NCBI GenBank assembly: GCA_013003715.1
Contig: JABDIN010000094.1
Location: 1 to 64,000, forward strand
Reading direction: 5' to 3'
Origin: Desulfobacteraceae bacterium
GTDB taxonomy: Bacteria > Desulfobacterota > Desulfobacteria > Desulfobacterales > Desulfosarcinaceae
Length of the DNA stretch: 64,000 nt
Shown here piece by piece: positions 9,698 to 38,876 of this stretch (its first letter is position 1; every line of letters starts with the position of its first letter). Made by a program: the position numbers and the translations under genes. Under the pieces are notes generated by a model. It worked only from the letters and a program-made list of their open reading frames with translations. It searched no databases and was not told the origin of the DNA.

Positions 9698-9838
9698 TTA
9701 GATGAACATTTTGAAAAACTGTCCCGCGGTGTATGCTACGATACAGATACCCGTAATGATGAGAACAATGGCAACCATTCTCCCAGCGGTGGAACGGGGC
9801 ACTATTTTCGAAGAACCGACGGTACTGATTGCGGTCAT
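9698..9838 (-). pseudogene. 46-residue remnant of a K+-channel pore/second TM helix
   Basis: This short frame starts at an ATGA overlap with the preceding gene. It reads like the end of a two-TM K+ channel: a TVG filter start, VPRSTAGRM, then a 20-residue hydrophobic helix (VAIVLIITGICIVAYTAGQF). In channels the filter is TVGYGD and is followed by ..VP.S..GR and this helix; here YGD reads SSK, so the filter is lost. The first TM helix, pore helix and any RCK domain are missing. It is either a decayed channel gene or a fragment reused as a one-helix membrane peptide. Confidence 0.55.
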
Positions 9839-10764: not shown

Positions 10765-10794
10765 TTTTTCGGATTCCCTTGGCAGTACCATCAA

Positions 10795-19709: not shown

Positions 19710-20936
19710 ATGCCTGTATATGATTATACCGCCCTGAATCCCAAGGGAAAAACCATCAACGGCATCATTGATGCCGACGGTCTTGGTGGTGCTCGTCAAA
19801 AAATCCGGTCCGCCGGCAACTATCCGACATCCATAACGGAATTGAAGAACACAGATGCCGCCAGGAGTAAAAAAGAACTCTCTTTATCAGGGCTTTTCTC
19901 ACGAGTAAGGCCTGCGGAAGTCGCCATCATGACTCGGCAGTTATCGACGCTGCTCGGAGCCGGCTTCCCATTGGTCTCGGCCATTGATTCGCTTTTAACC
20001 CAAACAAAATCCCAGGGTTTGGCCAAGACCGTTGCCAAACTAAAAGACGACATCGTCGAGGGCAGCAGTTTTGCAGCGGCATTATCCCAGCACACCAATG
20101 TTTTTACGCAACTTTTCATCAACATGGTCCGGGCCGGTGAATCTTCCGGCACACTTGAAATTGTGCTGGACCGCCTGGCGGATATCACAGAGAAACAGCA
20201 GGCCCTGCTCCGGCGAATTCAGGCAGCCCTGGCCTACCCTATTCTGATGAGTTTTATCGGTAGCGGGATACTCATTTTTCTCCTGGTCTACATTGTGCCA
20301 AGCATCACTTCCATATTCACGGATATGGACCGGGTCTTACCGACACCAACGCGCCTGCTGATTTATATCAGCGGTATGTTCAAAGCGTTTTGGTGGGTAA
20401 TTTTATTATTAATTATCGGTATGTTAATGGTGTTCCGGAGTGTAAGAAAGACCACCAAAGGCCGGCAATTCATCGACAGATCAATCTTAAAGCTGCCCCT
20501 GGCCGGCAACCTGGTGAAAAAAATTGCCGTGTCACGATTTTCACGCACCTTGGGGTCCTTATTGGAGAATGGCGTCCCCATGCTGAAATCCCTTGAAATC
20601 GTCAAGGAAATTGTAGGGAATGTCATCATCTCGGATGTCATCCTAAGCGCCACCGGACAAGTGGAAAAAGGTCAGGGCTTGGGCAACTCAATCGCAATCG
20701 ATGAGGTTTTCCCCTCGCTGTCGGTACAGATGATCCAGGTCGGTGAACAAAGCGGTCAGTTGGAATCCATGCTGATGAAAGTGGCCGATGTATACGAAAA
20801 TGAAGTGGAATCAACCATCATGAGCATGACGGCTTTACTGGAGCCGGTCATGATACTGGTAATGGCCGTGGTGGTAGGCTTTATCGTGCTGTCCATCTGT
20901 TTACCGATATTCGAGATGAGCAATCTGGTATCCTGA
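19710..20936 (+). CDS. gspF: Type II secretion inner-membrane platform protein GspF
   Basis: 408 residues, the family length. Two GspF/PilC cytoplasmic helical domains (MTRQLSTLLGAGFPLVSAI and FSRTLGSLLENGVPMLKSL) alternate with three TM helices, including one near the C terminus (EPVMILVMAVVVGFIVLSICLPIFEM). It forms the inner-membrane platform that couples the GspE ATPase to pseudopilus growth. It is the first gene of the F-G-H-I-J-K-L-M-N-C-D-E cluster. Confidence 0.95.
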   Translation: MPVYDYTALNPKGKTINGIIDADGLGGARQKIRSAGNYPTSITELKNTDAARSKKELSLSGLFSRVRPAEVAIMTRQLSTLLGAGFPLVSAIDSLLTQTKSQGLAKTVAKLKDDIVEGSSFAAALSQHTNVFTQLFINMVRAGESSGTLEIVLDRLADITEKQQALLRRIQAALAYPILMSFIGSGILIFLLVYIVPSITSIFTDMDRVLPTPTRLLIYISGMFKAFWWVILLLIIGMLMVFRSVRKTTKGRQFIDRSILKLPLAGNLVKKIAVSRFSRTLGSLLENGVPMLKSLEIVKEIVGNVIISDVILSATGQVEKGQGLGNSIAIDEVFPSLSVQMIQVGEQSGQLESMLMKVADVYENEVESTIMSMTALLEPVMILVMAVVVGFIVLSICLPIFEMSNLVS

Positions 20937-21036
20937 TGGAAAAACATCACCCATAGAACTACATATCCGGTCTGAAAATAAATCAGATCGAACGACCCAT
21001 TGAAACTGACTGGAAAGTTCAGATAACGGAGGTAAA

Positions 21037-21492
21037 ATGAAATATAAAATACAACAGGATGACCATGTCCGGTCAGGATTCACCCTCATTGAGTTGATGG
21101 TTGTAATCGTCATACTCGGGATATTGGTGAGCTTTATCGGGCCGAGATTTATGAGCCAACCTGACAGTGCGAAAGTCACCAAGGCCAAAATCCAAATCGA
21201 AAGTATCAGCACCGCCCTGAAAATGTATAAACTGGACAATGGTTTTTATCCAACCACCGACCAGGGACTACAGGCCCTGATCCAGCCACCGGATTCCGGC
21301 CGGATTCCCCAAAAATGGCGTAAAGGCGGCTATCTCGAGAAAAGTTCCATCCCCAAGGACCCGTGGGGAAGCGAATTCGTCTTCATTTCTCCTGGGACCC
21401 ATGGCGATTTCGATCTGATATCCTATGGCGCCGACAGCGTTCCGGGTGGTGAAGAATTCGATAAAGATATCTCAAGCTGGGATGTCGAGTAG
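21037..21492 (+). CDS. gspG: Major pseudopilin GspG
   Basis: 151 residues; GGAGG lies just before the ATG. A short basic leader ends at G, and FTLIELMVVIVILGILV follows with the conserved Glu at +5, the prepilin peptidase signal. The C-terminal half has the GspG pattern (KLDNGFYPTTDQGLQAL, PKDPWGSEFVF, DLISYGADSVPGGEEFDKDI), including the calcium-binding loop region. It polymerises into the pseudopilus. No prepilin peptidase gene (gspO) is in the window. Confidence 0.95.
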   Translation: MKYKIQQDDHVRSGFTLIELMVVIVILGILVSFIGPRFMSQPDSAKVTKAKIQIESISTALKMYKLDNGFYPTTDQGLQALIQPPDSGRIPQKWRKGGYLEKSSIPKDPWGSEFVFISPGTHGDFDLISYGADSVPGGEEFDKDISSWDVE

Positions 21493-22063
21493 ACATATTC
21501 ACAATCTGACGATGCCAATTCATGTAAAAACGGACATCAACACGGATAGCAACGGCTGTCATCCAACAACCAGCGCCGGATTCACCCTCATAGAATTGGT
21601 GGTGGTGATGGCCCTTATCGGTATCATGCTATTTGTTGCCGTTCCACGCTTCCAGGATGATTACCTGTCATCGAAAACCAAAAAGGTATCGAGGTGGCTG
21701 CTGATAAACATTCCGTCCTGCAAATTAAAAGCCATCCGCGAACAAAAACATGTTATACTGAGGATTGATCTGGATGCCCACAAAATGTGGATCATCAGCG
21801 AAGATATGGATGAAGGTGCTCCAGAGTCCGCCCTTAAAAACGCTTTTCAATTTCCGGAGGGCGTCGTCATCAAGGATGTGGATTTCGGCGATGGCGACCT
21901 GATCACGTCCGGTGAAACCGAGATCGTCTTTTATCCCGCCGGATACTCGTATAGGGCAATCCTACACGTTGAAGACAACGATGACAATCAACTCTCTTTT
22001 ATCGTCGAACCTTTTCTCACGAAGACGAAAATGATTGAGGAATATGTAAATTTCGGGACATAG
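21482..22063 (+). CDS. gspH: Minor pseudopilin GspH
   Basis: About 193 residues from the ATG at 21482, which overlaps the end of gspG; the ATG at 21512 is an alternative and neither has a strong ribosome-binding site. The leader is long and basic, followed by G-FTLIELVVVMALIGIM with Glu at +5. The rest is a beta-rich GspH/FimT-like domain. It should form part of the pseudopilus tip complex. Confidence 0.85.
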   Translation: MSSRHIHNLTMPIHVKTDINTDSNGCHPTTSAGFTLIELVVVMALIGIMLFVAVPRFQDDYLSSKTKKVSRWLLINIPSCKLKAIREQKHVILRIDLDAHKMWIISEDMDEGAPESALKNAFQFPEGVVIKDVDFGDGDLITSGETEIVFYPAGYSYRAILHVEDNDDNQLSFIVEPFLTKTKMIEEYVNFGT

Positions 22064-22131
22064 CTCCCTGAGGGTATTTATCGAATTATGTTCAATATGC
22101 TCAATTTAAACCTAAAAATCATCTTAAAAAA

Positions 22132-22545
22132 ATGTCTCGAACACGATTGACGGCAACAGCAACACCACCTCGTACCGCCGGATTCACGCTTCTGGAAATC
22201 ATGGCCGCTATCGCTATAATTGCCATCGTGCTCGTCGGTGTATACCGGTTATACGCCCAGTCCATACGCATGAGCGGGGCGGCACAATTTTATACCGTCG
22301 CCACCTTGCTGGCACAGGAGATTACGGCCCGTATCGACGCCAGTCCGAATGAGCAGCCGACAGACGATTCAGGGGATTTCGAAGATGAATATGCCGCATA
22401 TTCCTGGAAGCTGACGGTCGAGGATCTCGAATCGGAAAGCTTTTCGGATGCGGATACAAAACCGCGTAAAATAGAAATTCAAGTGGTATATAATGAAGAC
22501 GAGTATTCTTACTCACTCCAGACGCTACGCTGGTTCTCCGATTAA
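22132..22545 (+). CDS. gspI: Minor pseudopilin GspI
   Basis: 137 residues. The leader MSRTRLTATATPPRTAG precedes FTLLEIMAAIAIIAIVLVGVYRLYAQ, a type IV prepilin signal with Glu at +5. The mature region LLAQEITARI... and YSWKLTVEDLE fits GspI. It acts with GspJ and GspK at the pseudopilus tip. gspJ starts 53 nt before its stop. Confidence 0.88.
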   Translation: MSRTRLTATATPPRTAGFTLLEIMAAIAIIAIVLVGVYRLYAQSIRMSGAAQFYTVATLLAQEITARIDASPNEQPTDDSGDFEDEYAAYSWKLTVEDLESESFSDADTKPRKIEIQVVYNEDEYSYSLQTLRWFSD

Positions 22546-23245
22546 CCGGAACGGACAAACCGCACCGGACACGGCGGCATCGGGTTTCACCATTCTTGAG
22601 CTGATGGTGGCAATTTTTATTTTCGCTATCGTGGTATCCACTGTATTCGGTTCTTTCCGGTCTGTTTTTTCAAGTTCCGAGGCCATGAATACGAGCACGG
22701 ACCTCAGGGAGATGGCCGCCAACTGCCTGGATCGCATGCGATCGGATCTCTTGTCAATTTACGTTTCAGTTCCACCTGCGTATATACCACCGGAATTTAA
22801 CGATGATCCTGACATTTTCAGAGTAGTCGGCGATGTCTCGGATGATGGGAGCGGGGATTACGGCCGATTGACATTCACCAGCACAGCCCATCTTCCATTC
22901 CGAAATGACAACAGAACCGGTATCGCCCAAATCATCTACTATGCAGATACGGACGCGGACGACGGGATTGTGATACGGCGCCAGGACAATTTATACCCCT
23001 ATCCGGACGATTTTGAGAAAAAGGAAGGTGATCCGATACTCTGTGAAAGAGTGAAGGGGTTGACCTTTACGTATTATGATCATGATAACGAGGAAACAGA
23101 CCGGTGGAATTCAGAGAGTGATGAGAATAGTTTTGCGAGTCCCATTGCTGTGAAAATAGCATTGGTTCTGGGTGATGAAGACTCGGAAATGGCCTTGCAA
23201 ACACGGATAAATATACCCATGCACCGGCCTCCGGTGGAAAAATAA
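22493..23245 (+). CDS. gspJ: Minor pseudopilin GspJ
   Basis: 250 residues. A 30-residue leader ends at G before FTILELMVAIFIFAIVVSTVF (Glu at +5). The C-terminal domain is large and beta-rich, with segments such as VKGLTFTYYDHDN that match GspJ. No other ATG gives a prepilin leader, so the overlapping start within gspI is accepted; translation may be coupled. Confidence 0.88.
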   Translation: MKTSILTHSRRYAGSPINRNGQTAPDTAASGFTILELMVAIFIFAIVVSTVFGSFRSVFSSSEAMNTSTDLREMAANCLDRMRSDLLSIYVSVPPAYIPPEFNDDPDIFRVVGDVSDDGSGDYGRLTFTSTAHLPFRNDNRTGIAQIIYYADTDADDGIVIRRQDNLYPYPDDFEKKEGDPILCERVKGLTFTYYDHDNEETDRWNSESDENSFASPIAVKIALVLGDEDSEMALQTRINIPMHRPPVEK

Positions 23246-23250
23246 TCCCC

Positions 23251-24402
23251 ATGAGAAAACTCAAAACTCCGACGGCTCGCAATATCCTTAATATCATTGG
23301 TAAGAAGATCATCACCCTGATGAACAGGCATATTTTCTTTGCGCCGCTAAAAAACAATCGTGGTGTTGCACTGCTGGTTACCGTGGGCATCATCACCATC
23401 ATGATTGCGGCGGGTATGCAAATCAACCAGAAAATGACGCTGGCGGCCACACGAGCCGCCACCATACGGGATCGATTGAATGCATATGAAATGGCGGTCT
23501 CCGGCGTCCACGGTGCAATGGCCTTGTTGCTGAAAGACAAAAAGGAGACCACCGCGGATTCCCTGCAGGAGGAGTGGGCCGACCCGGAGTACCTCAAATC
23601 GATGGTGGAAGAGTTCGGATTCGAAAACGGCGGGCTTGAAATCATCATCTCCGATGAATTAAGCAAGATCCAAATCAATGCCCTCGTCCAGTTTCCTGAA
23701 GGCCGGAACTTCGATGAAACCCAGCTGGCATTCTGGGAACGTTTTGCCAATCGCATGATGCTGCTGTACGAGGAAGTCGAAGATACCGACGCCGTTACCA
23801 TTATCCATACCGTTAAAGATTGGCTGGATTCCGGAGATGATGATGCCATTACCGGACTCAGTGGGGCGGAATCCGACTATTACGAAGGCCTGGATCCCCC
23901 TTACGCTTGCAAGAACGGGCCGTTCACCCACCTGGGAGAAGTAGTCCTGGTCAAGGGCATTACACCTGAAATTTTCTATGGTTTTGGTGAAATTCTAGGT
24001 TTCTCCAATTATATCACCATTCATGGCATGTCCGAGACCGAAGAGAAAAAACTTACATACCCTGGCAAAATCAATATCAATACCGCGCCATTGCCGGTTG
24101 TGGCGGCGTTGCTGCCCTCGGATTCGGAAGGCTTTGCACAGGCACTTATTGATTATCGAGAGGACAAATCCGATGAGAAATTCGTGAATGAGTTGACCGA
24201 TGAAAAGTGGTATAAAAACATCCCTGGATTCGGAAGCATTGATATATCCCCCGGTCTTATTCAGGTAAGCTCCGATGTATTCAGAATCCGCTCTACCGCC
24301 ACTGTAAACGACGTAAAATTGACCATAAAAGCCGTCGTACAACGGGAAAAGAATGAAAAGAATGAGAAATGGCAGTGTAAGGTCTTGAATTGGCAAGCAT
24401 AA
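23251..24402 (+). CDS. gspK: Large minor pseudopilin GspK
   Basis: 383 residues. After the leader it has RGVALLVTVGIITIMIAAGMQ, and like GspK in general it lacks the Glu at +5, in line with its place at the very tip. The large alpha domain includes INALVQFPEG, VKDWLDSGDDD, GPFTHLGEVVLVKGIT and the NINTAPLPVVAALLP helix-hairpin-helix-like segment typical of the family. It starts 5 nt after gspJ. Confidence 0.92.
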   Translation: MRKLKTPTARNILNIIGKKIITLMNRHIFFAPLKNNRGVALLVTVGIITIMIAAGMQINQKMTLAATRAATIRDRLNAYEMAVSGVHGAMALLLKDKKETTADSLQEEWADPEYLKSMVEEFGFENGGLEIIISDELSKIQINALVQFPEGRNFDETQLAFWERFANRMMLLYEEVEDTDAVTIIHTVKDWLDSGDDDAITGLSGAESDYYEGLDPPYACKNGPFTHLGEVVLVKGITPEIFYGFGEILGFSNYITIHGMSETEEKKLTYPGKININTAPLPVVAALLPSDSEGFAQALIDYREDKSDEKFVNELTDEKWYKNIPGFGSIDISPGLIQVSSDVFRIRSTATVNDVKLTIKAVVQREKNEKNEKWQCKVLNWQA

Positions 24403-24583
24403 TAGAATATATTGACGAGGTTCGATCCGTGCGACCTTGTGGGCATGACTCCTGCAATGTATTATCAGGTCCTTCTTTTCAGTATATAAGCTATACCGGC
24501 CCCATCGCACATGGATGTCCGGGGGGCGAACACCTGGTTACCGTCAGGTAACCGATCACTGGTAATTATGATATGGGCTTGAC
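24403..24583 (+). other. Gap within the T2SS cluster, with small hairpin
   Basis: About 180 nt without a gene, the longest gap in the T2SS cluster. It has a perfect short hairpin at 24536-24553 (GGTTACC-GTCA-GGTAACC). It could hold an internal promoter for gspL onward or an attenuator, but no promoter is clear. Confidence 0.4.
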
Positions 24584-26029
24584 ATGAGCCGCTCACTATT
24601 GGGAATAGATATCCGCAAAGATGCGATTGCGGCGGTCCTGGTTAAAGGAGGCATCAAAGGATACTATATTGATGACACCTTTCTTGCACCGCTGCAGATC
24701 AATGGGTCCAATAACAACGGCCTTGCGGAAGCGCTGGAAGGGTTGATCCAGAAGATTGACCTGTCGAACACGATTTGTACCGTCTCGTTCCCGGGCGATT
24801 CGATTTCGTACCGGAATCTTCGCGTACCATTCAAGGAAAACCGTAAAATCCGCCAGGTTCTTCCCTTTGAACTCGAACCGATGTTGCCGATACCGGTTGA
24901 TGACCTGGTTTTTGATTACCACATCGTTGAAACCGGCGACACCAGCAGACTTCTTGCCGCCGCTGCCCAGCAATCCATAGTTGACGGTTATCTGCAGGCA
25001 TTATCCACCCATGGTATCGATCCCGTGCTGTTAACAGCGGGAACACTTCCCACAGCATTAAGCCTGATACACCTGGCCGATACCCCTGAAAATGTGCTGA
25101 TCATCTCATCGGGAGGTGTTCAACACACCCTTTTCGTGGTTGCAAACCGCAAGGTTCAGTTGTCCCGGTCGTTTTTAAGATCAAAAACCCCGCTGGGAGA
25201 CGCGCAGAACATACTGATGAATGTTCAGCGAACCTTGAGCGGATTCGAGGAACTCTCTCAGACGGATTTTATTCCCCAAGCGGCTATCCTTTCCGGATTC
25301 GAATCCAATACCGAGAATATTTCCAATCGAATTGCTTCGATGTTCGATTGTCCGGTGGCGGTGGCCGATCTGATCGATGATACGGAAGTACTGCAACCGG
25401 CGGAAAATTTTTCCATTACCAACCGCGAAGCGTTTCAGAACGCTGCCGCCCTGGCGCTGCTTGAACTGGAAGGCATACCATGCATCAATTTTCACCGGCA
25501 TCGGTCGGTGTTGAAACAACATTTGCTGGACTATAAACCCAGATTGATCCGGACCGGCTGTCTGGTGGCACTATCCCTTATCCTTATGATCGGCGGCGTC
25601 CTGATTGACGGGTACGCAGCGAAACGGCAAATCAGGGAATTGGACACCCAGATAATGGATATATTCAAAATTTCCTTCCCGGCCGCCCAATCGGTGAAAT
25701 ATCCGGCCAGGGAAATGGAAGCGAAACTCAATGAACTCAAAAAAGACCTGGCCGGCGCCGACCAATCCGACCCCTTGCCGCGGTTTATCGATATACTGCA
25801 CCGCATGAGCGAGCTGATCGCAGGCACGATAGATGTTGAATTTACACGTTTTGTTTCGGGCACGGATGATATAACGATTACAGGCAACACCAATGATTTT
25901 AATGCGGTGGATGAGGTAAAAAACCGTTTGGAGCAGGAACCATGGTTTAAAAAGGTAACCATCAGTTCTTCAAACAAATCCAAATCCGGTGATCGTGTGG
26001 AATTTAAATTAAAAATTCAATTGCAATAA
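24584..26029 (+). CDS. gspL: Type II secretion inner-membrane protein GspL (PilM-like)
   Basis: 481 residues. The cytoplasmic part is actin-like (LLGIDIRKDAIAAVLVKGG at the start; YRNLRVPFKENRKIRQVLPFELEPMLP matches GspL/PilM). One TM helix follows (GCLVALSLILMIGGVLIDGY, about residues 326-345), then a periplasmic ferredoxin-like domain (VEFTRFVSGTDDITITGNTNDF). It recruits GspE and pairs with GspM. Confidence 0.9.
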   Translation: MSRSLLGIDIRKDAIAAVLVKGGIKGYYIDDTFLAPLQINGSNNNGLAEALEGLIQKIDLSNTICTVSFPGDSISYRNLRVPFKENRKIRQVLPFELEPMLPIPVDDLVFDYHIVETGDTSRLLAAAAQQSIVDGYLQALSTHGIDPVLLTAGTLPTALSLIHLADTPENVLIISSGGVQHTLFVVANRKVQLSRSFLRSKTPLGDAQNILMNVQRTLSGFEELSQTDFIPQAAILSGFESNTENISNRIASMFDCPVAVADLIDDTEVLQPAENFSITNREAFQNAAALALLELEGIPCINFHRHRSVLKQHLLDYKPRLIRTGCLVALSLILMIGGVLIDGYAAKRQIRELDTQIMDIFKISFPAAQSVKYPAREMEAKLNELKKDLAGADQSDPLPRFIDILHRMSELIAGTIDVEFTRFVSGTDDITITGNTNDFNAVDEVKNRLEQEPWFKKVTISSSNKSKSGDRVEFKLKIQLQ

Positions 26030-26033
26030 TGCC

Positions 26034-26579
26034 ATGCTGAAAAAAATAACCCTGCCCTTCAACATCGATAAACGGGAAAAAATCGCGATATCAGCCGCAT
26101 TGGTCTGCATCGGACTGTTTATCATCATCGAGCTGGCCATACTTCCCTTTTTTAACAATAGGGACCGGTTAAAACAGGAGCTTATCCTCAAACAAAACGA
26201 ATACACCAAAATGCTGTTGATGCGGCAGGAATATCTTGATGTGACAAAGGGTGTGGAACGGTCTAAATCAAAACTGCAACGACGCCGGGCCGGGTTTCGG
26301 CTATATTCATTTATGGATACGCTTGCGGGCCGGACCGGTATTAAAGCGAATATCGCTTATATGAAGCCGTCCACATCAACCAAAAAAGACAGCCCCTATA
26401 AGTTCTCCCTGGTGGAACTGAAGCTGCAGAGCATCACAATGAAACAATTGATTGCCTATCTGTACCAGGTGGAGACATCAAATAATGTCATCACCGTGAA
26501 ACGTATTTCCATTTCGAAAACAGAGAAAAAAGAGAGCTTGATCGATTCGATTCTTCAAGTGGAAACGATTGAATTATAA
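26034..26579 (+). CDS. gspM: Type II secretion inner-membrane protein GspM
   Basis: 181 residues. One N-terminal TM helix (IAISAALVCIGLFIIIELAILPFF) is followed by a coiled-coil stretch and a small periplasmic ferredoxin-like domain. The sequence is poorly conserved, and assignment relies largely on the position right after gspL (4-nt gap) and this topology. It stabilises GspL. Confidence 0.82.
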   Translation: MLKKITLPFNIDKREKIAISAALVCIGLFIIIELAILPFFNNRDRLKQELILKQNEYTKMLLMRQEYLDVTKGVERSKSKLQRRRAGFRLYSFMDTLAGRTGIKANIAYMKPSTSTKKDSPYKFSLVELKLQSITMKQLIAYLYQVETSNNVITVKRISISKTEKKESLIDSILQVETIEL

Positions 26580-26585
26580 CTAAAT

Positions 26586-27455
26586 ATGAATAACCAAAAA
26601 ACATATGTCGCTTATGTCGCATTTTTCATCGCGGCCATGGTGTTTTTTATCTATTACCTGTTCCCGTCAACAACCATCGCGGACTATATGTCCAATGCGG
26701 CTTCATTGCAGCATCCGGATCTCGAAGTGTTTGTGGATCATGTATCACCCGCTTTTCCACCCGGCTTGAAATTTGACGGGTTGAAAATAGATTACCGGCA
26801 GCAACCGGCGCTGACCGCCCAGCGTGCCCGATTCTCCCCGGTGCTGAGAACACTGTTTTCGACCAGCCGAAAGGTGAATTTTGATATCGTTTGCGCGGAC
26901 GGCAGTATCAATGGCCAGGCGGACATTATCAAAGAGAAGGACGGCGTTTTAATAAAAAGCAAAGCCGAACTTTCCGATATCGAAATCGGCAAAATCAATG
27001 CGGTCAACGTCTATTCCCCGCATCTGTTGAGCGGTATCCTCAACGGGCAGGTGTCGGTAAACACGGATCTGACATCCGATGTCCAGAATGAGGCCGAGTT
27101 GACCATCAGCGATTTTAAAATTACACTGGAAACGCCGATTATCAATGTGGAAAGTTTCGAGTTCAAGTCCATCGTAGCCAGTCTCAGTTTGTCGCAACGC
27201 CGTATCCGTCTCCGTAAATGCACACTCAAGGGCAGGGATATGGATGGGGAAATCACCGGCACCCTCTCCATTAGGGTTCCTTTTGAGAACAGCCTGTTGA
27301 ATTTCTCCGGCACCATTCAGCCGCATCCTGAATTTATGGCGCAACTGAGCAGCACATTGCCTGTGGCAATGCTGTCAGCGCAAAGTATCGGACAAAAAGG
27401 GCTACCGTTCCGAATTCGCGGTACGGTAAACAATCCCGGATTTTCATTGAGGTAA
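26586..27455 (+). CDS. gspN: Type II secretion protein GspN (delta/Leptospira type)
   Basis: 289 residues. There is an N-terminal signal anchor (YVAFFIAAMVFFIYYLFP), then a beta-rich periplasmic part with GLKFDGLKIDY near residue 60 and a C-terminal FRIRGTVNNPGFSL, a pattern seen in the GspN of delta-proteobacteria and Leptospira and in AsmA-like domains. The role is uncertain. Its place between gspM and gspC supports the name. Confidence 0.8.
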   Translation: MNNQKTYVAYVAFFIAAMVFFIYYLFPSTTIADYMSNAASLQHPDLEVFVDHVSPAFPPGLKFDGLKIDYRQQPALTAQRARFSPVLRTLFSTSRKVNFDIVCADGSINGQADIIKEKDGVLIKSKAELSDIEIGKINAVNVYSPHLLSGILNGQVSVNTDLTSDVQNEAELTISDFKITLETPIINVESFEFKSIVASLSLSQRRIRLRKCTLKGRDMDGEITGTLSIRVPFENSLLNFSGTIQPHPEFMAQLSSTLPVAMLSAQSIGQKGLPFRIRGTVNNPGFSLR

Positions 27456-27460
27456 TACAA

Positions 27461-28339
27461 ATGATAATCAATCGTTCCATAACCGGCATTAATTTCGCCA
27501 TCTTGTTATTGGCCGCTTACTTCAGCGTCAATATCGTTTATAACGTCGTTGATATGCAGCTGAGCCGAAAACGGCCGCTGCCTGTATTCCAAAACACGGA
27601 AACGCCGCAGGAAACCATCATCAACCATCCCGAAACCCACTATCAGCTTGTACTCGACCGCAATTTATTTAAGGTCGCTACCATGGTAGTCAAAAAAGAG
27701 CTGCCGAAACTTGACCCGGACTCCCTGGAGCAAACAAAACTTCAGCTCAAACTATGGGGGACGGTTTCGGGTGAAGGCAATGCGCTGTATGCCGTTATCG
27801 AAGAGACCACCAATCGCCAGCAGAACCTCTATCGTATCGGTGATGCCATCCAGAACGCCAAGGTCAGGGCGATTCTGCGGGAAAAGGTGATCCTCAACGT
27901 CAACGGCAAAGATGAGGTGTTGGGCATGGAGGAGATGACCCTTGGCGGGGGTAGTGGAACGCGCCGCAACATTCCGACCCGAACACCCACTTCAACCGTG
28001 GCCGGCACAAGACCCCAGTCTCAAAAAATCACGCTAAGACGGTCACTGATAGAAGATTCAGTTCAGGACATCTCCAAATTGATGACGGAAGTACAGATAC
28101 GCCCCTACCTGGAAAATGGCGCCCCGGCCGGATTGGCCTTGTCGAATATCAAACCCAATTCAATATTCCGGCGAATGGGCTTGAGAAATGGAGACATTAT
28201 CACCGGGGTCGATGGCCAGAATATTCAGTCGGTGGACGATGCACTCAAACTATACGAAAACCTCCGTTCGTCTTCCAATGTAAATGTCGATATTAAACGC
28301 AGAGGCAGGGAAAGAAATATCGAATACCAGATTCGATGA
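27461..28339 (+). CDS. gspC: Type II secretion protein GspC with PDZ domain
   Basis: 292 residues. An N-terminal TM helix (FAILLLAAYFSVNIVYNVV) leads to the homology region (LQLKLWGTVSGEGNALYAVIEE...NLYRIGDAI), which binds the secretin N0 domain. A C-terminal PDZ domain follows (LALSNIKPNSIFRRMGLRNGDIITGVDGQNIQ), used for substrate contact. It overlaps gspD by 4 nt. It links platform and secretin. Confidence 0.92.
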   Translation: MIINRSITGINFAILLLAAYFSVNIVYNVVDMQLSRKRPLPVFQNTETPQETIINHPETHYQLVLDRNLFKVATMVVKKELPKLDPDSLEQTKLQLKLWGTVSGEGNALYAVIEETTNRQQNLYRIGDAIQNAKVRAILREKVILNVNGKDEVLGMEEMTLGGGSGTRRNIPTRTPTSTVAGTRPQSQKITLRRSLIEDSVQDISKLMTEVQIRPYLENGAPAGLALSNIKPNSIFRRMGLRNGDIITGVDGQNIQSVDDALKLYENLRSSSNVNVDIKRRGRERNIEYQIR

Positions 28340-30753
28340 TGGAATATGTTGCACCTGCACATGGTTTGGAAATAATAACAGCAAAGGGCATTTTTGTGAA
28401 AAAGAATACAATTAAGGTTCGAAGAATTCCGATGGCGGCCCGCATCACTTTGTTCACGCTGATGGTTCTGCTGACCACCCTGTTGTTAATTTTCATCGGA
28501 GACAATAATCAGGCGGTTGCTGAAGAAGGGGCTGTTCAAAACAAGCGTTTTGTTTCCATTGATTTCAATAATGTGGATATCAGTGTTTTCGTCAAGTTCA
28601 TGAGTGAACTGACCAAAAAAAACTTTGTCATCGACCAGCGGGTCCGCGGCAAGGTGACCATCATCTCCCCGGCCAAAATATCCGAGGATGAGGCCTACCG
28701 CGTTTTCGAATCCGTTTTGGAAGTCCATGGATTTGCCCTGGTGCCTTCAGGAAAAGTGGTGAAAATCATCCCCTCGCCGGATGCGCGGACCAAAAGCATT
28801 GAAACCCGGTTGCGGGAAGAGGCGCTATCACCCAATGACCGGATTATCACCCAGTTGATACCGCTACAATACGCTGATCCGACACTTCTGAAGCGGCTGC
28901 TGACACCGATGATTTCGAAAAGCAGCATTATCCTGGACTATGCGCCGACCAATATGCTGATCATCACCGACGTGGAATCCAATATCAAACGCTTGTTGAA
29001 GATCATCAACACCATCGATGTCACCGGCGTGGGACAGAAAATAAGTGTGATCCCGGTTGTCTATTCGGATGCGACCAAACTGGTCAAGACCTTGAGCACT
29101 GTATTTCAGTCGGCCACCAGGGCCGCAAAGGGGACGACCGGTCCCAGTCTGACGATGGTGGCGGATGAACGTACCAATACCATCGTCATGCGGGCCAGCG
29201 ATGAACAGACCCAGCATGTGGAGGCGCTGATCCAAATGCTGGATATGGATACGCCGCGGGGTAAAGGCAATATTCATGTCGTATACCTTGAAAATGCAGC
29301 GGCGGAAGATCTTGCCAAAGTGCTTCAGGAGATACCCAGCAAGGATGCGAGCGGCGCACCCGGCAAAACGCCGTCACCGGTGGTATCGGATAAGGTTCGC
29401 ATCACGGCGGATAAAGCCACCAACAGCCTGATTATCATGGCGGACAAGGAAGATTTCCAGGTTATTGAAAATATAATTAAAAAAATCGATATCCCCCGTG
29501 CCATGGTCTATATCGAAGCGCTGATCATGGAGGTGAATGCCGACAAAAACCTGAAACTCGGCACTGAATGGCTTGTGGGAGATGATTTCGAATATCAGGG
29601 GAAGGATGCCCTCGCCGGTGGCGGATTCAACAGCGGATCCCCCTTATTCGGATTCGACCCTGCCACCGGTGGTCTTGCCTTACCGGCCGGTATGGCCCTC
29701 GGTGTGTTTGGAGAAACCCTCGACATCGGCGGGATTAGATTTCCAAGCCTTTCCGCCGTTGCCAATGCATTCCAATCCGATTCGGATACCAACATATTGT
29801 CGACACCGCAGATCAGCGTGCTGGACAACGAAGAAGCCTCCATCATTATCGGTGAAACGATCCCCTTCCGGACCAAAGCCACCACCACCAGCAGCAGCGA
29901 CACCTTCAATTCTTTTGAATACAAGCCGGTGGGGAAGAACCTTAAAATCACGCCGCACATCAGCAAGGACCGCATGGTTCGCCTTGAACTGGAATTGAAT
30001 GTGAGTGCCGTCAAACCCGGAGCAGACGATCCGCTGACCCCGTCCACCTTTACACGTGAAGTCAAAACCACGGTCATCGTCCGGGACAAACACACGCTGG
30101 TCATCGGCGGATTGATCGACGACACAAGCAATACCAGCACACAACAGGTTCCCTGCCTGGGGGACGTTCCCGGTTTCGGGTGGCTGTTTAAAAACAAAAC
30201 CAATACGGCAAACCGAACGAATCTCTATATTTTCCTGACCCCGCGGGTGATTCAATCGCCGTCGGAAGCAAGAAAGATCTTTGAAAAAAAGAAAAGTGAC
30301 ATGGAAAGCATCAAAGGCGGCAAGATCGATCTATTCAAAGAGATAGACGAATCAGGCGATGCCGGTCAAATCCCCAGTATTGAAAGTTTTGATTACAGTG
30401 AAACCGATCAAGCCCTGGACGCCACTGCAGCACCGGCGGAACCTGTTGAACCGGTCGAAGCTGCGGAACCGGTGGCATCGGATGAACCGGTACAAGATGA
30501 GCCAAGGTCCGCATTGCCGGCCGCTTCCATTTATACCCTCCAGGTCGCTTCATATCAGAATTTGGAGAAAGCGGAGCTTAGAAAACAGGAATTGGTGAAC
30601 TTCGGACACAACGCATATATCGTTGAGTCGGACATCAATGGCATGGTATGGTATCGCGTTCGCGTCGGGCAATTTGCAAGCGAGGAGGAGGCACTGGCGT
30701 TGGGTGAAGAGATGCAGGAACAGATGATTTCCACCATTCTGATAAAGATTTAA
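28336..30753 (+). CDS. gspD: Secretin GspD with C-terminal SPOR domain
   Basis: 805 residues, the outer-membrane secretin ring. The N-terminal signal anchor is ARITLFTLMVLLTTLLLIFIG (near residues 35-55). N0 (FVSIDFNNVDISVFVKFMSELTKKNFVID) and repeated N1-N3 domains (NMLIITDVESNIKRLLKII, and others) precede the secretin core, which ends in VPCLGDVPGFGWLFKNK...LYIFLTPRVI. A Pro/Glu-rich linker follows, and then about 75 residues of a SPOR domain (YTLQVASYQNLEKAELR, NGMVWYRVRVGQFASEEEA). SPOR domains bind glycan strands lacking stem peptides. A SPOR tail is not part of textbook GspD. No pilotin (GspS) is seen nearby. Confidence 0.93.
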   Translation: MMEYVAPAHGLEIITAKGIFVKKNTIKVRRIPMAARITLFTLMVLLTTLLLIFIGDNNQAVAEEGAVQNKRFVSIDFNNVDISVFVKFMSELTKKNFVIDQRVRGKVTIISPAKISEDEAYRVFESVLEVHGFALVPSGKVVKIIPSPDARTKSIETRLREEALSPNDRIITQLIPLQYADPTLLKRLLTPMISKSSIILDYAPTNMLIITDVESNIKRLLKIINTIDVTGVGQKISVIPVVYSDATKLVKTLSTVFQSATRAAKGTTGPSLTMVADERTNTIVMRASDEQTQHVEALIQMLDMDTPRGKGNIHVVYLENAAAEDLAKVLQEIPSKDASGAPGKTPSPVVSDKVRITADKATNSLIIMADKEDFQVIENIIKKIDIPRAMVYIEALIMEVNADKNLKLGTEWLVGDDFEYQGKDALAGGGFNSGSPLFGFDPATGGLALPAGMALGVFGETLDIGGIRFPSLSAVANAFQSDSDTNILSTPQISVLDNEEASIIIGETIPFRTKATTTSSSDTFNSFEYKPVGKNLKITPHISKDRMVRLELELNVSAVKPGADDPLTPSTFTREVKTTVIVRDKHTLVIGGLIDDTSNTSTQQVPCLGDVPGFGWLFKNKTNTANRTNLYIFLTPRVIQSPSEARKIFEKKKSDMESIKGGKIDLFKEIDESGDAGQIPSIESFDYSETDQALDATAAPAEPVEPVEAAEPVASDEPVQDEPRSALPAASIYTLQVASYQNLEKAELRKQELVNFGHNAYIVESDINGMVWYRVRVGQFASEEEALALGEEMQEQMISTILIKI

Positions 30754-30772
30754 TACTGGTATTTCAAAACGG

Positions 30773-32530
30773 ATGAAAAACATTCTCCCTGATATTTTAG
30801 AACAGAATTTCGGTGTTCCCCGTACAGTTTTTACCGAATCCCAACGGATCCAGAGGGAAAAAGGCGGAAGCATCGGCGATCTGCTCATCCAGAAAAAGGC
30901 AATTACCGAATCCCAGCTTCTGGAAGCGTACAGCCTGCTTTATGAGATCCCATTCTGGCCAGAACTGCCCATCGACAAGGTCAGTGTCGATCTGACCCAG
31001 AAAGTCTCCATACAGTTTCTGAAAAAATTTTTCATGGTGCCGTTGGCTCTGGATGCGGAAAAAGTGACCACCCACCATCCGGGCCCCCTGAACGGACCCG
31101 ATGCCGAGCCGGAAAAAATCAATATTCAATCCACCGTCATCGCGGTGAACGATCCATCCGCCTTCCAACCCCTGGATGATTTGATTCGCCTGCTGGGCAT
31201 CGAAGAATACCAACTTGTGCTTTCGACCAGGAACGCCATACTTTCCGTAATCAATCTTTCCTATGATCTTGGCCAGAACTCGGCCGAACAATTGGTGCAG
31301 GACATGGAGGACAGCGACGAGTCCCTGATCAGCGAAATCGAGGATACCGCTGACCTTCTGGATGATACCAGCGATGCCCCGATCATTAAACTGGTCAACA
31401 ATATCATCTCCCAATCCATAAAAGCACGCGCCAGTGACATCCATTTTGAACCCTACCAGGACAGTTTCAAGGTCCGGTACCGGATCGACGGTATATTGTA
31501 TGATCTGTTGACACCGCCCAAATGGATTCAGCCGGCCCTGACATCCCGTATTAAAGTCATGGCCAAACTGAATATCGCGGAGAAACGGCTGCCCCAGGAT
31601 GGCCGATTCGAGGTCAAGATCGGCAATCAGGTTATCGATGTGCGGGTTTCGACACTGCCCATTTCCTATGGCGAAAGAGTGGTACTGCGGTTGCTGGTCA
31701 AATCAGGATCGGTCTTGATGATGACCGACCTCGGCTTTTCACCTAAAATGCTGAGTCAGATGACCGAACTGGTGAAATCCCCAAACGGTATCATCCTGGT
31801 GACCGGACCCACGGGTAGTGGTAAGACGACCACCTTGTATTCCATACTCTCATCCATCAACACCCCGGATATCAATATCATCACGGTGGAAGATCCGGTG
31901 GAATACCAATTGAAAGGGATCAGCCAGATACAGGTGAATCCCAAGATTGAACTTACCTTTGCGCGCGGTCTCCGATCCATCGTACGTCAGGATCCCGATG
32001 TCATCCTCATCGGCGAGATTCGCGATAAGGAGACGGCTGAAATCGCCGTTCAATCCGCCTTGACCGGCCACCTGGTGTTCTCGACCATTCATACCAACGA
32101 CTCAGCCAGTGCCATCACCCGGTTGGTGGATATGGGCGTGGAACCTTTTCTGATTTCTTCATCGGTGATTGCCATAGTTGCCCAACGATTGGTGCGTGTA
32201 TTGTGTAATGATTGTAAAAAAGTTTACAATCCCGGCTCGAGCGCCCAAAATCTAGGATTTAAAATCGAAAACATTGATAGCTACAGGTTCTATACACCTG
32301 TGGGATGTGATAGTTGTTTCAATACCGGATACAGGGGCCGGATCGGTATTTTCGAACTGATGATCATGGGACCGAGCCTCAAGGAACTGATCATTAAAAC
32401 GCACGATTCCGTAAGAATAAAGCACGAAGCATTGAATGAGGGCATGGTCATGTTGCGCAATGACGGACTTGATAAAGTGCTCAAAGGCATCACCTCCATC
32501 GAAGAGGTCATCAGGGTAACCCAGAAATAG
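30773..32530 (+). CDS. gspE: Type II secretion ATPase GspE
   Basis: 585 residues. The N-terminal MshEN-like domains (GGSIGDLLIQKKAITESQLLEAYSLLYEIPF) contact GspL. The ATPase core has Walker A GPTGSGKTTT, the Asp box DINIITVEDPVEYQ, Walker B ILIGEIRDKETAE and the His box HLVFSTIHTNDS. The tetracysteine zinc module is intact (LCNDCKK ... GCDSCFNTGYRGR). It powers the pseudopilus from the cytoplasm. It ends the gsp cluster. Confidence 0.95.
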   Translation: MKNILPDILEQNFGVPRTVFTESQRIQREKGGSIGDLLIQKKAITESQLLEAYSLLYEIPFWPELPIDKVSVDLTQKVSIQFLKKFFMVPLALDAEKVTTHHPGPLNGPDAEPEKINIQSTVIAVNDPSAFQPLDDLIRLLGIEEYQLVLSTRNAILSVINLSYDLGQNSAEQLVQDMEDSDESLISEIEDTADLLDDTSDAPIIKLVNNIISQSIKARASDIHFEPYQDSFKVRYRIDGILYDLLTPPKWIQPALTSRIKVMAKLNIAEKRLPQDGRFEVKIGNQVIDVRVSTLPISYGERVVLRLLVKSGSVLMMTDLGFSPKMLSQMTELVKSPNGIILVTGPTGSGKTTTLYSILSSINTPDINIITVEDPVEYQLKGISQIQVNPKIELTFARGLRSIVRQDPDVILIGEIRDKETAEIAVQSALTGHLVFSTIHTNDSASAITRLVDMGVEPFLISSSVIAIVAQRLVRVLCNDCKKVYNPGSSAQNLGFKIENIDSYRFYTPVGCDSCFNTGYRGRIGIFELMIMGPSLKELIIKTHDSVRIKHEALNEGMVMLRNDGLDKVLKGITSIEEVIRVTQK

Positions 32531-32631: not shown

Positions 32632-33561
32632 ATGAAAAAAACTAAATGGATCATCTTATGCTTCATCGCTTTTGTCTGCCTGACTGGCCCCTTTACGGTG
32701 TCGGCGAACACCATGAGAATGATAGATGCCGATGACCAGTTCAATCTTGCCAACGCTTACTATCAGGATCAGGAATTTGAGCTGGCCATTATCGAGTTCA
32801 ACCGGTTTGTCTATTTTTTTCCACAGGACATGCGCCTGGAGCAGGCTCGGTATCATATCGGACTATCCTATTTCAATACGCGCCAATACAAAAAAGCCGT
32901 TAAACACTTTAGCAATCTTATCAATTTCCACGAAGACTCGACTTTAGCCGTTGAATCCTATTTCATGATCAGCCGCTGTTATGTGCAGCTCAACCTGATG
33001 GGACAGGCGGTCTCCACCTTACAGAACATTGCCACCCTCTCCACGGATACCAATGTAAAGGACCGGGCGTATTATACGATGGGTTGGATCGAAATCGACC
33101 AACTCAATCTCCGTCAGGCAAAAATATATTTCAATAAAATAAGTGAGTTGAATCGAAAGACTTACCAGATCCCGGAACTTTCGACAGCCATCGGCAAGGA
33201 CGCCGGGATCCCAAGGAAAAATCCGACCGTGGCCGGGGCGCTGTCCATCCTGCCGGGAGCCGGTCAACTATACTGCCACCGGTACAAGGATGCCTTGCTG
33301 GCATTCATCATCAATGGCGGATTAATCTGGGCCACCGTGGAGGCCTTTGACAAGGAGAATTATGCCCTGGGCAGCGTCATCGGGTTTGTGGAGCTGGGTT
33401 TTTATACCGGCAATATATATAGTGCAAAATCCGCCGCACACAAATATAATCGGGACCAAACACAAAGATTCATCGATGACTTGAAACAGAATTTATCTGT
33501 CAGCCTCACTCCCACCTCCGGGCTGGACGGTGTATATCTTGGTTTTCAATATCGATTTTAA
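32632..33561 (+). CDS. Exported TPR protein with C-terminal membrane segment
   Basis: 309 residues. The signal peptide is MKKTKWIILCFIAFVCLTGPFTVSA. Four or so TPR-like units follow (FNLANAYYQDQEFELAIIEFNRF, ARYHIGLSYFNTRQYKKAVKHF, ...). Then LPGAGQLYCHRYKDALLAFIINGG matches the membrane motif of DUF5683-like proteins, and another hydrophobic stretch lies near residues 240-260. The end (GLDGVYLGFQYRF) looks like an outer-membrane beta strand with terminal Phe. It follows gspE by 101 nt, so an accessory role for secretion is possible but unproven. Confidence 0.7.
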   Translation: MKKTKWIILCFIAFVCLTGPFTVSANTMRMIDADDQFNLANAYYQDQEFELAIIEFNRFVYFFPQDMRLEQARYHIGLSYFNTRQYKKAVKHFSNLINFHEDSTLAVESYFMISRCYVQLNLMGQAVSTLQNIATLSTDTNVKDRAYYTMGWIEIDQLNLRQAKIYFNKISELNRKTYQIPELSTAIGKDAGIPRKNPTVAGALSILPGAGQLYCHRYKDALLAFIINGGLIWATVEAFDKENYALGSVIGFVELGFYTGNIYSAKSAAHKYNRDQTQRFIDDLKQNLSVSLTPTSGLDGVYLGFQYRF

Positions 33562-34553
33562 TGTGGGTGCCGCCGGTGGTCAAAAAAATAATAAAAATCT
33601 GTTTCCTTATCATCATTTTTGTGACCGCTGCGGTGGCCGGAGGCTACTTCACCCTCACCTTCATTATCGACAGCGAGAGCACGGTAATCATACCGGATCT
33701 TCACAGTAAAGATGTTGTATATGCGCTGGAACTATTGACGGATCTCGGGCTGAATGTAAAAGTCAAGGGGTCCGAATACAACGCGGATATACCGAAAAAT
33801 TATATTGTTTTTCAATCCCCGGATGCCGGCAATGAAATCAAACAGGGCCGTGACATCAGGATCACCCTCTCCAAGGGACCCAAAACGCTTCCGGTACCGA
33901 ATCTTAAGAATATGAATTTATCCCAGGCGAATATCATTCTGGATGAAAATGATTTGTGTTCAGCGGACCCGACATTCGCCTACCATGATCACTTTGACAA
34001 ACACCGGATTATCAGCCACTATCCCCTGGCCGGCAGTCTGGCGAATCGGGGTCAATGCCTGAATATGCTGGTCAGCCTGGGGTCCCGCCCGCAGGCGTTT
34101 TTGGTCCCCGAGTTGTCCGGCAACTCTCTGGATGTGGTTATCGCCACCTTTGAACAGAGCCGTCTTTATATCGGTGAAATCCGTTCCGAGGTGAATACGG
34201 ATTTCCCTGAGAATATGATAATAGGACAGGACCCCAAACCGGGCAGCCGGTTGGAAGCGGGGGCCAGTATCAATCTGTCCATCAGTAAACTTACCGCTGC
34301 TACGGAACAAGCCTGGTCCTCCGGATTGTGGTTATTCCGCTACCGCGCAGATCCCGGTTTTTTAAGACAACACGTGCGGGTATTGTGGACAAGGCTTGGT
34401 TTTGCGACAGATCTTCACAATGATCTGATAACCCCGGGCAGCGAGTTATGGTTTTTCATACCCAAAGAGTATCACTCGACCATCCGTTTGTACGTGGACG
34501 GCGAATTGATAAAAACTGAAATCATGGACCTATTTGAGGAGAAATCAAGATGA
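33561..34553 (+). CDS. Membrane-anchored protein with three PASTA domains
   Basis: 330 residues, overlapping the previous stop. One N-terminal TM helix ([27 protein letters not shown]) is followed by three PASTA repeats, at roughly residues 42-110, 112-180 and 185-250. Each has VP(D/N)L..., a helix and a final SKG or SLGS segment ([48 protein letters not shown]). PASTA domains bind peptidoglycan or muropeptides. There is no kinase or transpeptidase domain, unlike most PASTA proteins. It overlaps rpe by 4 nt. Confidence 0.82.
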
Positions 34554-36200: not shown

Positions 36201-38876
36201 TTATCTCCGGATACGTTTCGCATCGTCCATACGCCGCATGGGCATCGGTTCTCCATCGACGGATGAGACGGACAAGGGCAAGGTGGTTCTGAAACCGGTG
36301 GTGAAGTCCAATCCGGCGGTATCGGCATCGACCTCGATCATGAACGGTTGGAGATACGAACTGTAAGCACTTACGGCTTCCCCGTTATCGCCCAGATAGT
36401 AATCATTATTCAAATCCGTACCGGCATAAATAAAATAGTTACCAGCGCGTACATTGGTGAATTCATATGCGTACCTTCCGGATTCAGCTTCTATACCGGC
36501 ATCGCTGACCACGTTCCAGACACCGTTGAGCAGGTCATCCCCATCGACCAGCAGTACATAGTGATAACCGGCATCTGCATTCGGGTCCGCTACCATGGAC
36601 TGGGCACTAAGCGTGACAATAACCGTATTCATTGAAAAATCAACTGGCTCATAAGTAATGGTTGCGTAGAATACACCTGCACCCATGGCATCAAGCATAT
36701 CTCGATCAACTGTGGCTTGGTATTGACCGAGTTTAAATGCATCAATACTCGACCCGGTCACCGTCAACCAAGCCTGATTGCTGACAGGATCGTTAATTTC
36801 TAATTCATCACCGCCAAGCTTCTCAGCCGTCATTTGAAAACTGTCTTCTCCGGAGCCTATATTGTAATAGTTCGGAGACACCGACAACACCGTGGGAGCG
36901 CCGTTCTGAACGGCATATACCGCTTTTTGCGCATTTATCAGGCCGTGTCCGTAGCTATTGTCCCGGCCGGCTGTCCCCAGGTCATCTGTGATTTCTCCAC
37001 TGATGAGATACGCATCAAAATCATCGGGTGTCATGGCGGGATCGAGATTCTTCATCAATGCCGCCACACCCGCCACATGGGGTGCAGCCATGGACGTTCC
37101 CATCAAAAATGCATAGGTGTATTCAGGATCGGATGTCGATACGGAATCATCTCCGATGGTGCTCAGCACGCCGTCGGTATACCCATCGTTGTTCAAATCC
37201 CCCTGGTCGCCGCCCGGCGCCGCCACATCGATGGAGCCGCCGAAATTAGAATATGAGGCCAGGGTGCGCTGGATGTCCACCGCGCTCACCGACACCACGC
37301 CGGTATAGGCGGCCGGATATTTGGGCGTGCTGGTGCGTTCGTTTCCGGCGGCCGCGATGATAATGACGCCCGCGTTTCTGGCGGCGGTGATCGCCTCCAG
37401 CTCGGCCTGGGAGGAACCGCTGTGGCCGATACTCATATTGATGATATCGGCGGCTTCGGCGGGTACGGGCTTGGTACCATTGGCAATGCCCGCGGCGTAA
37501 TAGATGGAATTGATCACATCGGTAAGAACACCGCCGGCTTTACCCAGGGCCCGCACCGGCATGATCCGGGTGGTGCCCCGGCCGACGCCGGCGACGCCGA
37601 CAGAATTATTAGTTTCCGCGGCAATAGTGCCTGCCACATGGGTGCCGTGGAAGGAGGAGTTGCCGATATCGCCGTCACCGGGATCGTCCGGATCGTCGTC
37701 CACCCCGTCTCCATCCCCGGCACTGGCCACATTTTCAATAAAATCGTATCCATCAACCAATCTATCGGCCAGGTCCGGATGATTCACCAATACCCCGGTA
37801 TCGATGACCGCCACAATGACTTCTCCGCTGTCCGGAGGCACATCCCACGCCTCGGACAGGTGAATCAGGTCATAGTGCCATTGCAAGTCAAAATATTCGT
37901 CATCAGGATCGGCAAAGGCGTATACCCGGTAGTTGGGTTCGGCATAGGCCACATCCGGGCGGTCCCGGAGTGCCTTGATCACCTTCAGGGTGTCCATTTT
38001 TTTCTGCATTTCCGGATCTGTGATCGGTACCGAAGGGATGCCGGTGCCCTGAACCGGATCGATGCCCAGTGACCGGAATACAGCAGTTTTCTGTTGATCC
38101 GTATCGAATTTCACCAGAATGGCAGGTCCCACGGACGCGTTTTTGACAACGAATCCCTGGGATTTGGCAAGAGCGGTTTTCGTTTGTGCGGCGGAAGAGA
38201 TATCGGCACCTGGGATGAACTTAACAATGGCTTCGCCGGGCACAAAATCAGAACTGAGTCTCAGGCCGCTGCCCGAGGACGAAATCGTGGATTGCCCGAT
38301 GGTGAGGGTGTAATTCGATGCACCGGAGATTATCTTCACTTCAATGTAGTAATCGTCATCGGTAGGTATGGTCAAGGTAGCTGAATCCGTAATACCGGGC
38401 TCCGAAACCACCACGGTAGAGGTGTCACTGGTGGTGTATAAAAAAAAATCGAAAACCGCATCTGAGTCTGCAACAAACAGGGTGATGGTTTCGTCCGCTT
38501 CAAGGTAAGCCGTATATATATCCTTTATATCACCGGCTATCCTGGATCGTCCGGTCGCACCGGCCATGGACCTGTTCGCATAACCGCCAACGGTGGCGGG
38601 GTTGTCGAGTTCCTGTGCATTGGCAAAATCGTCATTGGCGGCATATTCGGCCAAGGGATCGTTGACATCACTGTCGATGGCCATGTTGGCTTCCGCCAGG
38701 ATGGTCCCGCTGACGGTGTATCTTGGCGTCGGTGTAGGGTCATCTCCTCCTCCACTGCCGCCGCCGGAACAACCGGCAAGGGACAGGAGCAGCATACTGG
38801 TGATAAAAAGACCGATGGCGAATACATGTCGGGAAAGCACGTGGAAGGATATGGGATAAACAATTGTTTTTTTCAT
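36201..38876 (-). CDS. Subtilisin-family (S8) lipoprotein protease with PPC domain
   Basis: 891 residues. The lipobox is LSLAGC (C36). Residues about 108-195 form a pre-peptidase C-terminal-like (PPC) domain at the N-terminal side (SRIAGDIKDIYTAYLEADETI ... SNYTLTIG). A propeptide-like region follows (FVPGEAIVKF), then the S8 catalytic domain with D359 (VAVIDTG), H413 (HGTHVAG), N512 (AAAGNE) and S595 (GTSMAAPH). The C-terminal 230 residues are beta-rich. All catalytic residues are intact. It should be exported and lipidated; the PrcB-like gene follows at 3 nt. Confidence 0.93.
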   Translation of the reverse strand: MKKTIVYPISFHVLSRHVFAIGLFITSMLLLSLAGCSGGGSGGGDDPTPTPRYTVSGTILAEANMAIDSDVNDPLAEYAANDDFANAQELDNPATVGGYANRSMAGATGRSRIAGDIKDIYTAYLEADETITLFVADSDAVFDFFLYTTSDTSTVVVSEPGITDSATLTIPTDDDYYIEVKIISGASNYTLTIGQSTISSSGSGLRLSSDFVPGEAIVKFIPGADISSAAQTKTALAKSQGFVVKNASVGPAILVKFDTDQQKTAVFRSLGIDPVQGTGIPSVPITDPEMQKKMDTLKVIKALRDRPDVAYAEPNYRVYAFADPDDEYFDLQWHYDLIHLSEAWDVPPDSGEVIVAVIDTGVLVNHPDLADRLVDGYDFIENVASAGDGDGVDDDPDDPGDGDIGNSSFHGTHVAGTIAAETNNSVGVAGVGRGTTRIMPVRALGKAGGVLTDVINSIYYAAGIANGTKPVPAEAADIINMSIGHSGSSQAELEAITAARNAGVIIIAAAGNERTSTPKYPAAYTGVVSVSAVDIQRTLASYSNFGGSIDVAAPGGDQGDLNNDGYTDGVLSTIGDDSVSTSDPEYTYAFLMGTSMAAPHVAGVAALMKNLDPAMTPDDFDAYLISGEITDDLGTAGRDNSYGHGLINAQKAVYAVQNGAPTVLSVSPNYYNIGSGEDSFQMTAEKLGGDELEINDPVSNQAWLTVTGSSIDAFKLGQYQATVDRDMLDAMGAGVFYATITYEPVDFSMNTVIVTLSAQSMVADPNADAGYHYVLLVDGDDLLNGVWNVVSDAGIEAESGRYAYEFTNVRAGNYFIYAGTDLNNDYYLGDNGEAVSAYSSYLQPFMIEVDADTAGLDFTTGFRTTLPLSVSSVDGEPMPMRRMDDAKRIRR

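Follow-up and report, generated by a model that had tools for sequence, protein, structure and literature searches.

A type II secretion secretin with a C-terminal SPOR domain, a probable tie to the cell wall, in one family of Desulfobacterota

The stretch of 64,000 nucleotides analyzed here (the window) encodes, in a single unbroken frame of 805 residues at positions 28336–30753 of the forward strand, the secretin GspD of a type II secretion system (T2SS) with a SPOR domain at its C terminus; the real start is possibly residue 33. This SPOR arm probably links the channel to the cell wall, and does so from an unusual side. The whole protein reaches 532.5 bits against the NCBIfam model TIGR02517 (cut-off 351.35), and Pfam recognizes N0, three stretches of Secretin_N and Secretin in the expected order, followed by SPOR. 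Judged by these matches, the product is a complete GspD secretin, and from its family membership we infer a role as outer-membrane channel. A signal-peptide-like stretch was recognized by eye at residues 33–62 (28432–28521); N0 (PF21305, 97 bits) occupies residues 75–144 (28558–28767) and Secretin (Pfam, 163.4 bits) residues 478–640 (29767–30255). Behind the latter comes a segment that we call S-domain-like from its position (residues 641–672; 30256–30351) and that resembles the end of many tail-less GspDs of the order, then a linker whose composition is rich in proline, glutamate, alanine, aspartate and serine (residues 673–724; 30352–30507), and finally SPOR at residues 731–803 (30526–30744). 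The SPOR match to PF05036 amounts to 51.4 bits (E = 1.4e-13, cut-off 21) in a scan of the whole protein and to 56.4 bits when the tail is scanned alone, and it is also found in a six-frame search of the genome. The first-pass annotation had placed such a domain at residues 725–805, in frame behind a complete secretin and a Pro/Glu-rich linker, and the profile search that it proposed bears out both the range and the architecture, the linker being Pro/Glu/Ala-rich.

The gene sits in a T2SS operon, all of it on the forward strand. On the basis of Pfam matches, it is flanked by gspC (T2SSC and PDZ domains; 27461–28339), which overlaps the gspD frame by four bases, and by the gspE ATPase gene (T2SSE, 479 bits; 30773–32530), which begins 19 bases past the gspD stop. 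The remaining genes, named by eye, lie upstream in the order F, G, H, I, J, K, L, M and N (19710–27455); the frame named gspN (26586–27455), the only one of these that was scanned, gave no Pfam match. A scan of 30400–30900 for promoters and terminators found nothing. A short way past gspE, a membrane protein with PASTA domains (101.8 bits) is encoded at 33561–34553 (forward strand), PASTA being another type of wall-binding domain. Also near the T2SS genes is a large subtilase with a fervidolysin-type prodomain and, by eye, a lipoprotein-like start (36201–38876, reverse strand).

The features of the tail are those of a glycan-binding SPOR domain. A profile of 25 GspD tails matches the solved structures of CwlC (E = 8e-9), FtsN (5.6e-5), DamX (3.8e-4), DedD (2.2e-3) and RlpA (8.5e-3). 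These proteins share the fold and contact positions with the GspD tail, although they are division or wall enzymes, unlike the GspD channel; according to PMC6895207, published in 2019, every SPOR protein known has a role in division or morphogenesis. The same source describes denuded septal glycan as the SPOR target and five residues of FtsN, Q251, S254, W283, R285 and I313, as important for septal localization. The first four align with Q736, S739, W772 and R774 of GspD, positions that are kept in 23, 23, 22 and 24 of the 25 tails, respectively, and the window's GspD has the conserved glycan-contact glutamine and a basic patch through Q736 and R774. Three of the four positions are lost in the tail of L007, two in each of L020 and L028, and one in L074. 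In 8 of the 25 tails, glutamine takes the place of another arginine, R776. The structural prediction that had been suggested as a check also returned a SPOR-like fold: a single-sequence model of the tail (pLDDT 74.9, pTM 0.54) has the RNP-like β-α-β-β-α-β arrangement, and its best Foldseek matches are the SPOR domain of RlpA (PDB code: 6i05; E = 1.1e-3) and its glycan-bound form (PDB code: 6i09; E = 1.2e-3). With no match below E = 1e-3, this result agrees with a SPOR assignment and is not strong alone.

Of 30 genomes surveyed for GspD architectures within the family, 26 have GspD, at 27 places in all, and 23 of these places carry the SPOR tail. One place is cut by a contig end (G018) and three are tail-less, namely those of G017 and G028 and the second GspD copy in G029. 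In G017 and G028 the frame stops after a short tail and gspE follows directly, so the absence looks genuine; with three of the 26 uncut family places lacking it, the tail appears dispensable in some relatives. The gene is broken in two assemblies, being frameshifted in G025 (L059) and split over two contigs in G003 (L064/L065); both genomes were counted as SPOR-bearing, and the halves in G003 were not joined. The tails of 25 genomes each match PF05036 individually (25/25), and all except those of G025 and G003 share one unbroken frame with their secretin (23/25). A frameshift or a fusion of two separate genes, which the first-pass annotation had named as a finding that would overturn its claim, is thereby excluded, and the SPOR domain is, moreover, under purifying selection.

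Outside the family, a GspD match was obtained in 155 of 194 genomes of the order and in 84 of 198 of the phylum, samples that overlap and include a few family genomes. From the order, genomes with a GspD-type match were taken and then chiefly long frames, so the counts that follow are no estimate of frequency. Among the matches listed, the frames that were not fetched measure at most 728 residues, and the shortest unbroken SPOR-bearing frame has 783; short, broken or contig-cut frames (for example, in G065, G145, G203 and G210) and the weakest matches of the order were left out, and tails there could be missed. The core set comprises 135 rows, of which 26 belong to the family, 74 to other parts of the order and 34 to other parts of the phylum, and one is a named duplicate, after removal of L137, whose locus could not be mapped, and of both G003 halves. 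A SPOR tail is present in two of the 74 order rows (G068/L074 and G074/L075), two LysM domains stand behind the secretin in another (L082), and one more has a fervidolysin-prodomain-like end (L066); TPR repeats occupy this place in six phylum rows (L114, L115, L117, L118, L119 and L141). All 36 non-SPOR tails of at least 60 residues were scanned with Pfam, shorter tails being too small for SPOR. Because TPR and prodomain-like tails occur there in other lineages, the domain matches show that the C-terminal spot of GspD is not reserved for wall binders. The LysM domains of L082 (4563–7007, reverse strand) are nearly identical to each other and score 95 bits; the end of the GspD frame in L066 (7789–8079, forward strand) scores 35 bits against a domain type that is usual on proteases.

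Comparison of 21 family proteins gives a mean pairwise identity of 66% for the core, 40% for the S-domain-like segment, 22.5% for the linker and 39% for SPOR. In relatives, the linker varies from 28 to 133 residues, and 71–87% of it is P, E, A, S, T, G, Q, D or N. As read from these alignments, the pattern is that of a loose leash ending in a folded domain. Also, in seven close pairs dN/dS is 0.025–0.123 for the core, 0.062–0.260 for SPOR and 0.257–1.073 for the linker, with SPOR below the linker in all seven, dS being close to saturation in some; by this measure, purifying selection acts more strongly on SPOR than on the linker. In a tree of the GspD core (112 rows, linker and SPOR removed), the 26 family rows and G074 fall on one starred branch, of whose 27 rows 23 have SPOR, three have none and one is cut; in a re-run with 51 rows, the branch of the family plus G074 has a support of 87 and is unstarred. 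The simplest account of this topology would be one gain of SPOR on that branch, the tail having been lost in G017/G028 and in the second GspD copy of G029. G068 (L074) lies beside a tail-less relative in the 112-row tree, away from the main SPOR branch, and constraining it to that branch costs 54.6 log units, but a single SPOR branch is not rejected (p-AU 0.07, for a group picked after the tree was seen). The placement in the tree suggests a second, independent gain in G068. Nonetheless, transfer or losses may account for it instead, since its SPOR is closest to some family GspD SPORs, with local scores of 171–182 against 132 for the FtsN-like SPOR of the window's genome. The LysM pair of L082, a different kind of domain, is on its domain type a separate event.

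The tail does not stand alone as a possible link between this secretin and the wall. The first-pass annotation had seen no pilotin gene in the window, and this holds genome-wide for the PulS/OutS type (PF09691), for which a search of the genome, 97% complete, gave no match at E <= 1; other helpers do exist, as GspB and GspA are encoded on another contig. No lipobox cysteine was seen by eye in residues 31–75 of GspD, so it does not resemble the self-piloting lipoproteins of the HxcQ and XpsD type. GspB (PF16537, T2SSB, 45.5 bits) is encoded at L160:5281–6174 and GspA, with AAA_22 and the wall-binding PG_binding_1, at L160:6181–7848, the two genes adjoining on contig C98; a partnership of this pair with the window's GspD is putative. 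In the family, 26 of the 30 genomes have a GspB match (E <= 1e-4), 19 of them over the cut-off, with the tail-less G017 and G028 included. The match is absent in G001, G003, G004 and G021, of which G004 has no GspD and the other three carry the SPOR tail. The idea that the tail substitutes for GspAB was rejected on this distribution; as the window's genome holds both GspB and a wall-binding GspA, the tail would add to GspAB. The genome also has two places for Amidase_3 proteins, which could be a source of denuded glycan, and four further SPOR places, recognized by eye as FtsN-like, RlpA-like, ending NlpC/P60-like, and a larger protein beside gspAB. Taking these together with GspAB, the GspD tail would be one wall link among several. 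The SPOR protein at L160:8217–9683 (reverse strand, 51 bits), encoded immediately upstream of gspA and gspB, is a possible extra T2SS or wall factor.

The reading that we favor, with fair though incomplete confidence, is that SPOR tails tether the T2SS channel to peptide-stripped glycan and work beside GspAB. By its sequence, GspD ends in the S-domain-like segment and then a leash of about 50 residues with SPOR at its tip. A stretched chain spans 0.36 nm per residue, which gives about 19 nm for the 52-residue leash. In studied secretins, the S domain lies at the inner leaflet of the outer membrane, each channel has 15 subunits, and the distance from outer membrane to wall is 12–25 nm, as described in PMC9239104. 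Given this location of the S domain, the SPOR domains of GspD would be expected to hang in the periplasm around the exterior of the channel, about 15 per ring. There, they would bind peptide-stripped glycan, and the channel would be held to the wall via many weak contacts, alongside GspAB and without replacing it. Such a ring of weak sites would approach the wall from the side of the outer membrane and jointly give a good hold. Given the preference of SPOR for denuded glycan, the tether may favor recently cleaved wall, at the septum and the new poles; this is the weakest step, and selection of the septum would depend on how far denuded glycan is confined to the septum in this organism. The main structural doubt comes from PilQ, whose C terminus is reported to be exposed outside the cell (PMC5285504); if GspD were arranged alike, its tail would be out of reach of the wall. 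That GspAB already provides a wall link was also counted against the tether, and the LysM pair of L082, another wall-binding type in the same place, was counted for it. Placement at sites of wall turnover, as proposed in the first-pass annotation, would follow from the biology of SPOR domains, but this LysM counterpart suits general wall tethering equally well.

In a rival account, the tail could be a plain anchor that stabilizes the channel within the wall at any point of the cell and leaves the site of its construction unaffected; we rate this as a serious possibility, a little short of even. The doubling of LysM at the same spot in L082 suits it, as does the long, loose linker of variable length, which is what a tether would call for, and assembly could be the work of GspAB, which most of the family has. 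Nonetheless, SPOR favors glycan free of peptides, and according to PMC6895207 and PMC5285504 such glycan is concentrated at septa and poles. Another rival has recruitment to the septum as the main job, a plausible role for the tail that we hold more tentatively: GspD monomers would bind denuded septal glycan before assembly, so that channels would be built at openings in the wall and finish at the poles. There is a precedent in PilQ, whose AMIN domains are described as placing it at midcell before oligomerization (PMC5285504); the denuded septal glycan is the reported SPOR target (PMC6895207), and amidases as well as SPOR proteins of the FtsN-like and RlpA-like kinds are encoded in the genome. 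However, the LysM domains found in the same place in L082 are no particular pointer to the septum. A third account, in which the SPOR fold has turned to protein binding, for example of wall enzymes or of the SPOR protein beside gspAB, is improbable. The TPR tails of six rows from other lineages suggest protein docking in this place, the SPOR protein adjoins gspAB in the window's genome, and L007 lacks three of the four glycan positions; against this, those positions are kept in 22–24 of the 25 tails. Finally, a joined frame or a functionless tail, for which the three tail-less family places could be cited, has next to no probability, with all 25 tails matching SPOR, 23 of them in unbroken frames, and a SPOR dN/dS (0.06–0.26) that is not near 1.

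There is a precedent for SPOR in a T2SS secretin. LspD of Legionella, where the domain is predicted and N-terminal, is described as the only such case known (PMC9239104; also PMC6617341), so the first-pass list of known wall links of secretins, which ran to pilotins, GspAB and LysM-like parts, was incomplete in this respect, whereas the C-terminal SPOR itself stands. The two proteins differ in the position of the domain, which in LspD precedes N0, at the inner-membrane end, and here (731–803) follows Secretin (478–640), the S-domain-like segment and a long linker, at the outer-membrane end. They also differ in their helpers, as Legionella is said in the same two sources to be without GspA and GspB, and both are encoded in the window's genome. 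PilQ, the secretin of the type IV pilus, likewise has built-in wall-binding domains, which bring it to midcell (PMC5285504), but these are of the AMIN type, at the N-terminal end and in another machine. GspA/ExeA (AAA and PG_binding_1) with GspB also links the T2SS to the wall, although as separate inner-membrane proteins. The GspD of L082, a single survey row, shares the position, its wall-binding module likewise standing behind the secretin, LysM there and SPOR here. Judged by the listings of full-text searches, outside which most subscription journals lie, no report describes a C-terminal SPOR or LysM on GspD, and the C-terminal placement is apparently new.

The passage of wide secretin rings through the wall, and their hold in it, have so far been explained by GspAB helpers or by N-terminal modules, such as AMIN in PilQ and SPOR in LspD. 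The GspD tail puts such a module on a long leash at the opposite end of the protein; most members of the family retain it, and LysM parallels it in another lineage. It would represent a second geometry, and it raises the question of whether the chemical state of the wall decides the position of the T2SS channel. Tentatively, we propose that the GspD C terminus behind the S domain could be an evolvable docking port in Desulfobacterota, where SPOR or LysM would dock to the wall, TPR to protein, and the port once holds a protease-prodomain-like end; in the SPOR form, the ring of about 15 leashes might make the T2SS septum- or pole-seeking.

Two neighboring genes on the reverse strand belong to the surroundings of the T2SS operon. 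The first (9835–10794) encodes an exported-looking protein that has two similar stretches of about 60 residues (IQFYxPRR...GETNDL) and no Pfam match. Beside it, at 10795–12570, is the gene of a GspA/ExeA-like ATPase (AAA_22, 82 bits) with a C-terminal OmpA domain (69 bits), which is 31% identical over 267 residues to the GspA encoded on contig C98, making it a possible second wall-linked relative of GspA in the T2SS neighborhood.
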